A DNA stretch of 64,000 nt from Mariniblastus sp. (lineage in GTDB: Bacteria; Planctomycetota; Planctomycetia; Pirellulales; Pirellulaceae), in assembly GCA_014237975.1 (NCBI GenBank), contig JABACA010000009.1, positions 1 to 64,000 of the forward strand, in the 5' to 3' direction. Below are positions 53,648-63,992 of this stretch, in pieces. Both the position numbers and the translations under genes were made by a program. Within the stretch, counting starts at the first letter, position 1. Each line of letters starts with the position of its first letter. The notes beneath the pieces were generated by a model, which worked only from the letters and a program-made list of their open reading frames with translations, ran no database searches and had not been told where the DNA came from.

Positions 53648-54649
53648 TCATTGGGATTCGACCGCTGGTTGGACGTTTTCCCTCAGCAAGGACCAAATGG
53701 TCCGCCGGACATGCGACTTGGACGTATATTTGATGACCGAGTGCTGACAATTGGATGTGCGCGACATGTTGATCAGTTGGTTGTTTCCCAGCGGTTGATC
53801 GGGCATTTGAACCCACTGCTCAAACGACCGGAAATTGCCTGCAGATTGACGGATGCAAATCCGTTGGGCGAGGCAGGATACGATGTCGTTGTAGTTTGCA
53901 AAAACAACGGATCGTGTAATCGATTTGGAATGATAGGAATTTCTACAGCATTGACTGGAAAACCGGCATTCCATTACCGGCACAATCATGGCCACATGGT
54001 ATACGGCTTGCTTCTCTGATAAATCGTTATCGGTAAACGCCTTGGCGATTATCTGGCAGCCCAAACTGTAACCGACAATCAACGGTGGGTTGACGGAACC
54101 AAACGCATCGACGGTTGCTGAAAAAATAGCACCTAACCTGACGGCTCGCTGCGACTTGATGCAGAAATCAGTCACGCCATGGCCATTCCGATCTGAATCC
54201 CACGCCCAAATGACAAACCTGATCGGAGGTCGAGGGGGGGGGCAGCAATCGAACAAATTCCGACAAACTTGCCTCCCGCGATGCTTGGCCGAACATTCAT
54301 CGGTGCGATTTCCATGGACGTATAACACCGTCTCACCAATTGAGTCGTCCTGGTGTAATTGCAGCAACTCGGACAGGCTGGACGATGTCCAGCAGCCTCC
54401 GCGAAAGACTTCTACTTTGAGTCTCGACAAATCCGTCGTTTCGCAATTAACTGACCGTGCTGAAACGAACCAGATTTCATCACAGGATTGCACGGTTTCC
54501 TGTTTTTCATCGCCACCCGTGTTGTCCGAACCGGACTCGTCCGAGCCAGTCGGCGTTCTGCTTATTGTTTCAGCCAGGGCTGGTTGCCAACTGGTAGTGC
54601 CAGCCAGGCCAAGCAACAGAACGGTAATAATGAATTGGCGTGCCGGCAT
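53648..54649 (-). CDS. Exported alpha/beta-hydrolase-fold protein
   Basis: ETVLYVHGNRTDE, PPLIVGYSLGCQIIAKAF (GxSxG), signal peptide. Confidence 0.65.
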   Translation of the reverse strand: MPARQFIITVLLLGLAGTTSWQPALAETISRTPTGSDESGSDNTGGDEKQETVQSCDEIWFVSARSVNCETTDLSRLKVEVFRGGCWTSSSLSELLQLHQDDSIGETVLYVHGNRTDECSAKHRGRQVCRNLFDCCPPPRPPIRFVIWAWDSDRNGHGVTDFCIKSQRAVRLGAIFSATVDAFGSVNPPLIVGYSLGCQIIAKAFTDNDLSEKQAVYHVAMIVPVMECRFSSQCCRNSYHSKSITRSVVFANYNDIVSCLAQRICIRQSAGNFRSFEQWVQMPDQPLGNNQLINMSRTSNCQHSVIKYTSKSHVRRTIWSLLRENVQPAVESQ

Positions 54650-55525: not shown

Positions 55526-56572
55526 ATGAATCAGTTGATACCCTTTGTTGTGATGTTTATTGGCATGGTTGCTTCAGGCCTCGATACGGGTCAGCTGGTA
55601 GCCGGAGTATTGCAGGAAAATCAAACGACAAACGGTTCTTCGGAAAAAACTGCCAATGAATCTCTGGCAGGCACGAATGACGGGTTTCAAAGTGGAGGAC
55701 AATCGCTGGCCAATCCAGTTAAATACAACTGGCGGGTTGGCGTGCAAATCAAAGCCGGAAAAAGTTCTGCTACAAACTTCTTGGTGACCATTCCGGTTCC
55801 TACCAACTGGCCCGAACAACGGGTCGAACTGTTAAAAGAGAGTGTCCCGGCCGAAATCCGCAGCGTCAAGCACCGGTCGTTGAACAGTGGCGTCGAACAA
55901 CTGGTGATTGAAATACCTCGAATCGCTGCGAATCGCCTGGTCGAACTTTCGATGCTGTATCAAGTCACCGTTGGAAAAGTCAGTGCACCTGACAATCCGG
56001 AATTGCTTCAAATTTCCAAGAAACTCCCCCGGGAGGCGAAAGAATATTTGGGCGTCGGTCCTCAAATTACCTATCGAAATTCAAAATTGCGCAACCAGGT
56101 CAAGCAGCTTATATCAGAGCCGGAAACCGATTGGGAAAAAATCCAGTCCATTTTTGATTGGGTTCGCGATAATATAGAATTAGCGGATGGCGAGGGCGAG
56201 GGCGAGGACGAGGACAGTATTCATACGTTCCGTCAACGCCAGGGCAGTGCCGAGGACCTGGTGGGATTGTTTGTGGCGATGTGCAGGGCGGCCAAGGTTC
56301 CAGCTCGTGTCGTCTGGGTCGAAGGGCATTCCTATGCTGAATTCATGTTGGTCGATGAACAGGGCCAGCATCATTGGTTTCCCTGTCAAGTCGCCGGGTT
56401 GCGCGAGTTTGGCAGTGTCAGTGAACCGAGGATCATTTTGCAAAAAGGGGACAACATCAAGGTTCCTGAAAAGGAACAGCGTCAGAAGTTTGTTGCTGAA
56501 TTTGTAAAGGGATCGGGTAAGGCCAAACCACAAGTCCGTTTCATCCGTGATTTGCTGCCGGCAGATAACTAG
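55526..56572 (+). CDS. Transglutaminase-like family protein, first tandem copy (catalytic Cys apparently absent)
   Basis: IFDWVRDNIELADGEGEGEDEDS...RQGSAEDLVGLFVAMCRAAKVPARVVWVEGHSYAEFML aligns to the next gene. Confidence 0.82.
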   Translation: MNQLIPFVVMFIGMVASGLDTGQLVAGVLQENQTTNGSSEKTANESLAGTNDGFQSGGQSLANPVKYNWRVGVQIKAGKSSATNFLVTIPVPTNWPEQRVELLKESVPAEIRSVKHRSLNSGVEQLVIEIPRIAANRLVELSMLYQVTVGKVSAPDNPELLQISKKLPREAKEYLGVGPQITYRNSKLRNQVKQLISEPETDWEKIQSIFDWVRDNIELADGEGEGEDEDSIHTFRQRQGSAEDLVGLFVAMCRAAKVPARVVWVEGHSYAEFMLVDEQGQHHWFPCQVAGLREFGSVSEPRIILQKGDNIKVPEKEQRQKFVAEFVKGSGKAKPQVRFIRDLLPADN

Positions 56573-56597: not shown

Positions 56598-57614
56598 ATG
56601 TCCAGCCATTGTAAAATATTCTGGTTCTTGTTTGTGGCGATTTCGGTTTGTTGGAGCCCGGTTGTAACGGCCCAACTGGGTGATGATGATTCTCCATTGG
56701 AACTAAAAGACGAGATGGGTCCCACTTTGGGAGAAACCCGTGAGACTTACTGGGAGTTTGGTCTCAAGATTCAGTCCAATGGGAATTCTTCTGGCATTAC
56801 CGCGACCATCCCGATTCCTGTTGATTGGCCAGAACAGAAGGTGGAGATCGTACGGGAAAACAAGACGGATAACCTGCGACGGCTGTCCTACAATAATCTT
56901 ACCAGGCCAATGAAACAATTGATGATTAAAGCCAATCGTCTTGCGGATGGAGAAGTGGCCCAGGCTTCTGTGATTTTTCGGGTGGACAAGAGTGACGTTG
57001 ATCCTCCGGTGGATCCGAAACGTCTCCATTTTGCCAAATCACCTCCCAGCAATACCCGACCCTTCCTGCGGCCTAGTCCCTATATCGAAAGCAACCATCC
57101 CAGGATCAAGGCGATTGCAGAGCAGGAATTCGATTTTGGGGATGATGTTTCAGATTATGAAAAGGTCGAGAAAATCTATGACTGGGTTCGAACCCGCGTC
57201 GAGTATGAGTTTGATCCTGTCATCCACGAATGTCTGGAGGCACTCGATTCGGGAAAAGGAGACTGTGAAGAGCTTTCATCCCTGTTTATCGCATTCTGTC
57301 GCGTCAAGAACATTCCGGCTCGTGCCGTCTGGATTCCCGGGCATACGTACCCGGAGTTCTACATGGAAGACGAACAGGAGCAAGGTCACTGGATTCCCTG
57401 CCAGGCGGCAGGTGAATATTGTTTTGGAGGCATGACGGAAGATCGCCCCATTCTCCAAAAAGGTGACAAATTCAAAGTTCCTGGCAATAAAAAGCCACAA
57501 AGGTATGTTCAGCCCATGTTGACTGCAAAAGACGCCACAGGGGGACTGTCCAGCGAGTGGATTGGTCGTCAGTTGACCGAAGAGGAAGTGGCGCAAAGGA
57601 CCACTGGCAAATAA
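56598..57614 (+). CDS. Transglutaminase-like domain protein, second tandem copy
   Basis: IYDWVRTRVEYEFDPV...GKGDCEELSSLFIAFCRVKNIPARAVWIPGHTYPEFYM; signal peptide. Confidence 0.88.
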   Translation: MSSHCKIFWFLFVAISVCWSPVVTAQLGDDDSPLELKDEMGPTLGETRETYWEFGLKIQSNGNSSGITATIPIPVDWPEQKVEIVRENKTDNLRRLSYNNLTRPMKQLMIKANRLADGEVAQASVIFRVDKSDVDPPVDPKRLHFAKSPPSNTRPFLRPSPYIESNHPRIKAIAEQEFDFGDDVSDYEKVEKIYDWVRTRVEYEFDPVIHECLEALDSGKGDCEELSSLFIAFCRVKNIPARAVWIPGHTYPEFYMEDEQEQGHWIPCQAAGEYCFGGMTEDRPILQKGDKFKVPGNKKPQRYVQPMLTAKDATGGLSSEWIGRQLTEEEVAQRTTGK

Positions 57615-59058: not shown

Positions 59059-59961
59059 TCACTTCGTTTCGTCGCCATTCCGTGCGTTCTCAAGCCGTTG
59101 ACGACCCAACTCGCAATACTCCTTGACGCAATCGATCCCCAGATAACTGCGTCCCAACGTCTGCGCGACAAGCGATGTTGTTGCGGCGCCAGAAAATGGA
59201 TCTAAAACGACTCCGCCGGTTGGGCAGGAGGCTTGGATACAGGTTTTGACCAAGGTTTCCGGGAAGACGGCGAAATGGGCTTCGCGGAATTTGGAAAGCG
59301 GGATCGACCAGACGGTTCGCTTGTTTCGGCCTTTGGGGTGAAATGCCTGGTCCCAGCGAGCATCATGCAAATTAGTGTTTCCGCCGTTCTTGCCCTGCTC
59401 CGGCGTTCCGCCCCGCTTACCAAAGTGGCGGCGACCACCCTTCATTTTTGATTTTTCGGAAAAGGTGACGTGCGGTTCGCGAACGGCGTCCGCATCGTAA
59501 AAATAATCTCGGGATTTCGAAAAGAAGAAAATGTACTCGTGATCTGTCGTGGGTCGATTTTTTACGCTCGACGGCATCGCATTCGGTTTGTGCCAGATGC
59601 AATCGCTTCGCAATCGCCATCCCACGTCCTTGAGTCCCAGTGCAACGCGCCAGGGCATTCCCATCAATTCGCCATTTTGGTATTTGTCACCGATGATCAG
59701 CCAGGCAGAACCCGTTGGCTTGACGACGCGAAGCAGTTCGCCGAACAATTCGGTTAGCCGTTCCACGTAGGTTGAGGCGGAGGCTTCCTGCCCGATTTGC
59801 GCATCGGATCCATAGTCCCGTTGCAGGTAATAGGGTGGGCTGGTCACAATCGTGTCCACACATTCCGTGGGCAGCCCGGTGGCAACTTTAAATGCGTCTC
59901 CTTCTATAATCTGATTCAACTTCAAACTGACTTTTCGAGACACAACTGAACTCCGTTTCAA
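59059..59961 (-). CDS. Site-specific DNA methyltransferase (N4-cytosine/N6-adenine type)
   Basis: VDTIVTSPPYYLQRDYG (motif IV), LDPFSGAATTSLVAQTLGRSYLGIDCVKEYCELGRQRL (SAM-binding). Confidence 0.9.
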   Translation of the reverse strand: MKRSSVVSRKVSLKLNQIIEGDAFKVATGLPTECVDTIVTSPPYYLQRDYGSDAQIGQEASASTYVERLTELFGELLRVVKPTGSAWLIIGDKYQNGELMGMPWRVALGLKDVGWRLRSDCIWHKPNAMPSSVKNRPTTDHEYIFFFSKSRDYFYDADAVREPHVTFSEKSKMKGGRRHFGKRGGTPEQGKNGGNTNLHDARWDQAFHPKGRNKRTVWSIPLSKFREAHFAVFPETLVKTCIQASCPTGGVVLDPFSGAATTSLVAQTLGRSYLGIDCVKEYCELGRQRLENARNGDETK

Positions 59962-61925: not shown

Positions 61926-62147
61926 ATCGTTTTCTGGGACCGGTTTGCGGTTGAAACCAGCCAATTTGGTCAATTTGTGGGAATGCCCAAATCCATACCT
62001 GTAACCCGTTTGGGTGAAGGGTTTAGAATAAGGGACGCACCAAGAATTTCACCGAAATCGGTTTTTATTGCAATCGGACGTACATTTTGAGCTGGCGGCA
62101 GGCTGGAACAGATCCGTCCATTCAATCAGACAGTGAAATATAGGCCC

Positions 62148-63992
62148 ATGATTCGTTTTGCAGCTGGTTTCTTCGTTTGTATGCTCGTGTTTTTCGAGGT
62201 TTCGATGTCGTGGGCAACGACGGGCAACGAAGCGTCGCACCCCGTTTCGGTTGTCGAGGCGGATATTTATGTGACCCAGTTCAAGGTGACGGTCAAACTC
62301 AAGGCATTTGCCGAAGATTTGGAACTGTTGCAGGGCGTCGAAGCACTGAACGACGGGTTCTACGACTCGGAGGAGTTGCTAGACGCCACCAATGATCACG
62401 CCAATTACCTGGCGGAGAGAATCGAGTTGATCACCGCGGATGGTTTGAAATTGCCGGCCAAAATAGTCGAGATCATCCACTTTGACATCCCGGAAGAGGG
62501 GATCCGCCAAGGTCAATTGATGAACTATACGATGGGGTTTGTGCTGGAATATGATCTCGAGGAACCTCCGGAATTCATCACGATCAATCAGCGTATGGTT
62601 GCCGAAGACATGCTGCTCCCGTCGGAACTGAAGGTCATTCTGAAACAGGCGGGTTCGGATCAACCTTTCATGAAAATGATGAAACCGGATCAGCCCGAAA
62701 CATTTCGCTTTGACTGGGATGACCCAGCGCTCACGTCAGATGCCTCGGATGAAGACTGGGAAAGTTGGTTTGAAAAACAACGTGAAAAGACGCTGGGAAT
62801 CCAGAGCTACAGCAGTGTTTACTCCTTTATCTACATCACCCATTACGAGGTTCGACACGAAGTCCTGATTCCTTTGGCCAGTCTTGCCTCGTTTCTGGAA
62901 TTGAACCGGGCCGACCCCGGATTTCTTGATACCGAGGAGCAGGACGTGGCTGCTGAAAAGATCAAGGCATTCTTTTCCTCGGGCAATCCGGTCGAGATTG
63001 ATGGTGTTGTCGTCCAGCCGAAGTTTGACCGGATCGATTTTTACGGTTTGGACCTGCGTGATTTTGCCGTTCAAGCCGAACGTCGCAAGGTAAGCATGGC
63101 CAATGGCAGGGTTGGCGTCATTATGTCGTACAGCACCAAGGGAATGCCCACCAGTGTCAGTGTTACCTGGAATCTGTTTAATGACGCAGTTAAATCGGTC
63201 GACTCGGTGGTGTTTGCGTTTGACGATATCCAGAAAACGGAATTCACGATGTTCCTGACCGACAACACGTTTGAATGGCAGGCGACTGACATGGCACGCA
63301 TTGCACCCATTGCCGGAGTCACCACCGATGCTGAGAAGTATGCAGTGCCCGTCATCAAGGTGCCTCTGGTTTCCCTCGTGTTTGGAATGGTCATGCTGGG
63401 ATGGCTGGGCTGTTGCCTGTTTTGTCGATGCTCATGGATAAACGCTTTGCTAGTCGTTGTTCTTTGTTTGCTGGCGGGTTTGTTGACCTGGAATTACCAG
63501 GTGTGGGAGTTGAAAAATCCTTTTGCTGCCAGGCCCAAGGTTTCGCCCGAGCAGGCTAGCCAGGTTTTTACACAACTCCATAAGAATATTTTTCGTGCCT
63601 TTGACTATCGCAATGAAGAGGAAATCTACAATGCACTTGCTCAGAGTGTTGACGGTGAACTGTTGCGGGATCTGTACCTGAAGATCATTGAAAGTCTCAA
63701 GGTGAAGGAGCAGGGAGGCGCTGTTTCCAACATCCGCGAAGTAAAAATTGTGGCTGGATCGGCTTTGGCACCCGACCAGGATTCAGGTTTGTCTGGCCGG
63801 CCAAGTTTTGGTTTTCGCAGTCAATGGGATCTGGTCGGAACGGTCGAACATTGGGGCCATATCCACGAGAGGACCAACCAGTATGATGCTCGTTTCCAGG
63901 TCGAGTTAATTGACGATCAATGGAAGATCACTGCGATGCAGGTATTGGATGAATCCCAGGGACCTGTGAAAACCAGTTTGCGAAAATTTTGA
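62148..63992 (+). CDS. Hypothetical exported membrane protein
   Basis: Signal peptide MIRFAAGFFVCMLVFFEVSMSWA; two adjacent hydrophobic segments VPLVSLVFGMVMLGWLGCCLFC and INALLVVVLCLLAGLLTW. Confidence 0.7.
   Translation: MIRFAAGFFVCMLVFFEVSMSWATTGNEASHPVSVVEADIYVTQFKVTVKLKAFAEDLELLQGVEALNDGFYDSEELLDATNDHANYLAERIELITADGLKLPAKIVEIIHFDIPEEGIRQGQLMNYTMGFVLEYDLEEPPEFITINQRMVAEDMLLPSELKVILKQAGSDQPFMKMMKPDQPETFRFDWDDPALTSDASDEDWESWFEKQREKTLGIQSYSSVYSFIYITHYEVRHEVLIPLASLASFLELNRADPGFLDTEEQDVAAEKIKAFFSSGNPVEIDGVVVQPKFDRIDFYGLDLRDFAVQAERRKVSMANGRVGVIMSYSTKGMPTSVSVTWNLFNDAVKSVDSVVFAFDDIQKTEFTMFLTDNTFEWQATDMARIAPIAGVTTDAEKYAVPVIKVPLVSLVFGMVMLGWLGCCLFCRCSWINALLVVVLCLLAGLLTWNYQVWELKNPFAARPKVSPEQASQVFTQLHKNIFRAFDYRNEEEIYNALAQSVDGELLRDLYLKIIESLKVKEQGGAVSNIREVKIVAGSALAPDQDSGLSGRPSFGFRSQWDLVGTVEHWGHIHERTNQYDARFQVELIDDQWKITAMQVLDESQGPVKTSLRKF

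Follow-up and report, generated by a model that had tools for sequence, protein, structure and literature searches.

The window analysed here, 64,000 nucleotides from a Mariniblastus genome (5.0 Mb, 404 contigs, 94.8% complete), carries two adjacent transglutaminase-like genes on the forward strand. The upstream gene (55526-56572) encodes a predicted secreted pseudotransglutaminase of 348 aa. In this protein, an N-terminal beta domain (residues ~61-152) is followed by a Transglut_core domain (192-285) and C-terminal strands (326-344). Its sole Pfam match is PF01841 (Transglut_core; E 1.5e-14), at 54.6 bits for the upstream and 59.9 bits for the downstream copy, both above the curated cut-off of 23 bits. 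The C-terminus lies 63 residues past this match, and an NCBIfam search returned no family passing its cut-off. Segments of the upstream protein read RQRQGSAEDLVGLFVAMCR ... PARVVWVEGHSYAEF. Codons 56243-56254 (GGC AGT GCC GAG, forward strand) spell a degenerate nucleophile motif, G-S-A-E, where the paralog has GDCE. Ala242 (GCC, 56249-56251) occupies the column of the catalytic Cys; the alignment is ungapped across the motif, and the same column holds Cys in 114/114 canonical homologs compared. The initial annotation had reported this Cys-to-Ala change (GDC to GSA) together with a retained His region, and both observations, along with the positions given for them, are confirmed. His268 (CAT, 56327-56329, forward strand) lies in GHSYAEF, and Gln288 (CAA, 56387-56389, forward strand), in the column of the probable third catalytic residue, is kept as well. 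The upstream copy thus has the catalytic His but no nucleophilic Cys at the start of the core helix. A GGCGAG/GAC-rich repeat on the same strand (56190-56219), inside the interval flagged by the initial annotation, codes for DGEGEGEDED, a loop insertion ahead of the active-site helix where AF2 confidence is low. It adds ~4 acidic/Gly residues relative to the nearest relatives and is possibly a recent repeat expansion.

The downstream paralog (56598-57614, forward strand) is a PF01841 protein of 338 aa that starts with an ATG at 56598, a longer ORF being possible from a GTG at 56547. It reads GKGDCEELSSLFIAFCR...PARAVWIPGHTYPEF and contains the motifs GDCEE and GHTYPEF, with Cys223 and His249. 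An A-Q junction is conserved after a signal-like segment, and Q26 is invariant. Together with the hydrophobic N-termini of the two proteins, this invariant residue of the active copy suggests that both are secreted. The third triad position is taken by Gln269 (codon 57402-57404), which a conserved Cys adjoins (WxPCQ). This column holds Gln in 106/114 canonical homologs and Glu in 8; the usual Asp is absent, and both the upstream and the downstream copy have Gln. The description of the adjacent paralog as canonical therefore stands for its Cys and His, with both motifs present, but not for its third residue. Gln may serve catalysis in place of Asp, in which case the active copy would use a C-H-Q triad.

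AF2 models of the two proteins (mean pLDDT 86.5 upstream and 90.5 downstream) have an identical order of structural elements. The best PDB match of both models is 3isr (E about 1e-15), a putative cysteine protease from Cytophaga hutchinsonii that is also their best sequence match. It combines a beta domain with a transglutaminase core, as both copies do, at an identity of about 16-18%. Comparison with transglutaminase-like structures thus places both copies, as modelled, in one papain-like transglutaminase fold. A PDB sequence search with the pair proteins reached 3isr, not animal transglutaminases. We know of no characterised function for 3isr.

Loss of the nucleophile extends to the relatives of the source genome. 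A congeneric comparison covered a genus of 28 species genomes, 27 of them besides the source. Among these 27, a homolog match was found in 24 and a degenerate ortholog in 23; in one congener (71% complete) the only homolog is canonical and more distant, and three are without both genes. The canonical Cys is absent from 24/24 congeneric copies of the upstream gene. Conservation of Ala or Ser at this site was examined among these orthologs, and the residue found is Ala, Ser, Asn, Gly or Pro, never Cys. In most copies the His is gone too: it is kept in the source genome and its three nearest relatives, and is Thr, Lys, Ser, Ala or Gly in the remaining congeners. Homologs taken from >100 loci across the family and order gave 191 proteins, which were divided into 122 canonical members (Cys and His) and 69 degenerate members (canonical Cys or His missing). 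At the Cys site, the degenerate class carries K, N, P, A, H, R, G and other residues. On the sequences compared, the nucleophile was lost long ago and throughout the family rather than in the source genome alone. Because independently assembled genomes share the degenerate state, an assembly error and a private mutation are both ruled out. Another degenerate type is represented by homologs from a different family of the order (L056 2955-3926, L058 2704-3663 and L061 3029-4243), in which SNHEG and KYCYPE replace GDCEE and GHxYPE; these have no tandem canonical copy.

Could the upstream copy still be an enzyme? Its nucleophile might have moved to a Cys or Ser at the -1 position (GC[ANS]ED or GSA), or Cys-free chemistry might proceed via the kept His. 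Papain-like proteins are known for active-site migration (PMC10318531). A -1 Cys does occur in many congeners (GC[ANS]ED) and in 17/69 degenerate members, including the two nearest relatives of the source genome. However, most of the -1 Cys members are without His (GTQ, GKQ) and the source genome has Ser at this position, so a replacement nucleophile is not conserved. That Ser rules out, in the source genome, a relocated Cys as a general explanation, and the varied residues of the degenerate class include no conserved substitute. Continued enzymatic activity is thus improbable, the point against full loss in the source copy being that His and Gln are still present. With no ortholog carrying the canonical Cys and no conserved substitute for it, the initial annotation's view of a likely pseudoenzyme beside an active paralog gains support.

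Constraint is similar in the two classes overall and differs around the active site. Mean column entropy over 313 columns is practically the same for degenerate (1.99 bits) and canonical (1.98 bits) members. Relaxation in the degenerate relative to the canonical class is greatest at five columns, C223, Y203, D222, H249 and Q269 (downstream numbering). Because Cys and His define the classes, independent evidence comes only from the Asp, Tyr and Gln columns, whose relaxation suggests a C-H-Q triad in the active copy and points to a specific loss of catalysis in the degenerate class. Fold residues are kept in both classes (upstream numbering: G240, L248, F249, C253, R254, P259, R261, E272, F273, W284, P286, G291, F295, G296, G308 and D309). 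Pairwise dN/dS spans 0.01-0.12 for the degenerate copy and 0.02-0.08 for the active copy, and in Mariniblastus the degenerate-copy value is mostly at or below that of the active copy. For unsaturated pairs, the degenerate and active values are 0.037 versus 0.069 (G007-G020), 0.027 versus 0.076 (G019-G023) and 0.052 versus 0.046 (G008-G017). Between the source genome and its nearest relative, dN/dS is ~0.065 for both copies at a dS near 1.5. These values bear on whether the upstream gene is merely a decaying duplicate heading for loss. Active-site loss is a usual first step of decay, but the frame is open in all congeneric orthologs found and dN/dS stays far below 0.2 across several pairs of species. 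Such decay is very improbable, as is a sequencing or assembly artefact, against which the independent assemblies already speak.

The two genes are paired in a fixed order. The degenerate copy precedes the canonical one in 54/54 same-strand tandem pairs from 20 genera, with no canonical-canonical pair, although most of these pairs have common ancestry and are not independent events. The same rule emerged from a separate scan seeded with the active paralog, a query that should be unbiased towards degenerate neighbours; it yielded 80 named loci, and the two locus sets overlap in many genomes. A contig scan using the dead copy as sole query gave no matches. One locus is an exception in spacing, with the two genes ~2 kb apart on opposite strands. 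The intergenic gap is 25 nt in the source genome and roughly 40 nt at the median, the latter derived from a median of 190 nt between the upstream last codon and W52 of the downstream protein, and such short gaps suggest a single transcript. In six adequately complete Pirellulaceae genomes where the pair is unlinked, the canonical copy was found elsewhere in the genome. A degenerate copy alone was not found in any adequately complete Pirellulaceae genome examined, and all five Pirellulaceae cases lacking a full canonical copy come from incomplete MAGs or contig ends. Many genera have a single canonical gene only, so the enzyme is not always in need of a partner.

Multiple independent losses were considered as the origin of the degenerate class. 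Free trees require 5-7 changes between the canonical and degenerate states, yet a single origin is not rejected by the AU test (p 0.60 for all members, 0.92 for Pirellulaceae members). Trees constrained to a single origin also scored a higher likelihood than the free trees. Since a single origin is not rejected, repeated loss is not claimed; read conservatively, these trees reflect a single ancient loss, and the degenerate members found in other families of the order may be separate. In a mirror-tree comparison, distances of the two proteins correlate at r 0.91, and each correlates with the PanB control at 0.90 and 0.86, which leaves no clear excess over the species tree.

An upstream copy that has lost its nucleophile, is under purifying selection, keeps a fixed place before an active paralog, co-occurs with it and, by its model, retains the common fold is most likely a secreted pseudoenzyme serving as a non-catalytic partner of that paralog. 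This is the reading that we favour, with moderate confidence. The upstream gene would yield a catalytically dead, secreted transglutaminase-like protein that is co-expressed with the active downstream paralog and works as its partner. By one route, the dead copy would form a heteromer with the active copy and stabilise or activate it; by another, it would bind substrate and present it to the active copy. We infer that the two genes are co-transcribed, that the upstream protein is inactive and that the two proteins associate physically, as well as which way any regulation would run. The active paralog itself may be a protease, an amidase or a cross-linker. Maintenance of the dead/active tandem suggests a long-lived enzyme-pseudoenzyme partnership. 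The earlier proposal of a regulatory or substrate-binding partner is strengthened by invariant pairing, co-occurrence and purifying selection, while the physical interaction that it implies is a prediction.

The dead copy may instead act on its own as a secreted protein that binds peptides or the wall, its papain-like groove kept for binding (as a decoy, an anchor or for substrate protection), working beside the active enzyme but making no contact with it. Retention of the fold and of flanking conserved residues despite the loss of catalysis would suit such a role, and an anchoring role through peptide binding has been put forward for inactive transglutaminase domains in polymorphic toxins (PMC3482391). 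Nonetheless, a partner better fits a gene so strictly linked to the active paralog and co-occurring with it. The pocket columns (Cys, His, Gln, Tyr203) are also hypervariable, which speaks against one conserved groove ligand. We consider a stand-alone role rather unlikely.

The partner reading can be set against single-gene homologs, which served as an unsplit reference for complementary change. The dead copy differs from these homologs at the catalytic columns and matches them at E315, K316, E325, F326, P335 and R341; conversely, the active copy of the pair has the catalytic columns of single-gene homologs and is changed in the C-terminal E315-R341 set. Such complementary change fits a division of labour after duplication, although active pair copies mostly form their own clade and the split may therefore partly be shared ancestry. 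As a tentative possibility, the pair could form an obligate secreted Pirellulaceae complex, in which an ancestral enzyme was split into a chemistry subunit and a C-terminal scaffold or interface subunit and activity needs both.

Inactive transglutaminases and dead paralogs have precedents elsewhere. In erythrocyte band 4.2, the catalytic Cys is likewise replaced by Ala. Two papers describe this protein (EPB42) as an inactive animal transglutaminase kept as a structural protein (PMC13073648; PMC10318531). Retention of an inactive transglutaminase paralog is common to band 4.2 and the upstream copy, but band 4.2 is an animal, multi-domain, cytoskeletal protein with no operon partnership with an active paralog, and is named here as an analogue only. 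RloB of the Pseudomonas rlo operon joins an inactive transglutaminase to seven transmembrane helices and is predicted to face the periplasm (PMC12239564). It shares with the upstream copy a bacterial inactive transglutaminase in an operon; here, however, the transmembrane bundle is missing and the gene is paired with an active transglutaminase paralog. At 348 aa and with PF01841 only, the upstream protein does not have the make-up of the RloB family, and no ATP-grasp or retropepsin match was found among the neighbours scanned. Polymorphic toxins contain inactive secreted transglutaminase domains that have lost triad residues (PMC3482391). Those modules are N-terminal and precede RHS repeats, whereas the upstream copy is free-standing and ends 63 residues after PF01841, with neither RHS repeats nor a toxin domain. 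In trypanosomatids, AdoMetDC and deoxyhypusine synthase are activated by dead paralogs known as prozymes (PMC5201418, PMC3663545). As with prozymes, a dead paralog is maintained here with an active one, across all 54 pairs and in co-occurrence within adequately complete genomes. The prozyme enzymes are unrelated, and heteromer formation and activation, proven there, are predicted for the transglutaminase pair.

None of these known cases is a bacterial dead/active transglutaminase tandem. Pseudotransglutaminases and dead-paralog activators are already known; no earlier description of such a tandem in Planctomycetes was found in the open-licence literature. The best-studied enzyme-pseudoenzyme pairs are eukaryotic, whereas this one is bacterial and keeps a fixed order in at least 20 genera. 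Its single-gene relatives provide a natural unsplit control, and all grades of active-site erosion are present. How a dead paralog is retained, and whether it turns into a required subunit, is thus directly testable with small secreted proteins.

Elsewhere in the window, an N6/N4 DNA methylase (PF01555) is encoded at 59059-59961 on the reverse strand, with no restriction partner recognised in the ORFs examined. A predicted membrane protein of 619 aa, with no Pfam match over the cut-off, lies at 62133-63992 on the forward strand. Among the neighbours of the pair, panB and a Zip transporter are not generally conserved. Divergent to the pair on the reverse strand (53648-54649) lies a predicted secreted alpha/beta hydrolase with invariant Ser195 (GYSLG), Asp255 and His303, for which no Pfam or PDB sequence match was found. 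A homolog of this hydrolase adjoins 22/44 pairs versus 6/36 single genes.
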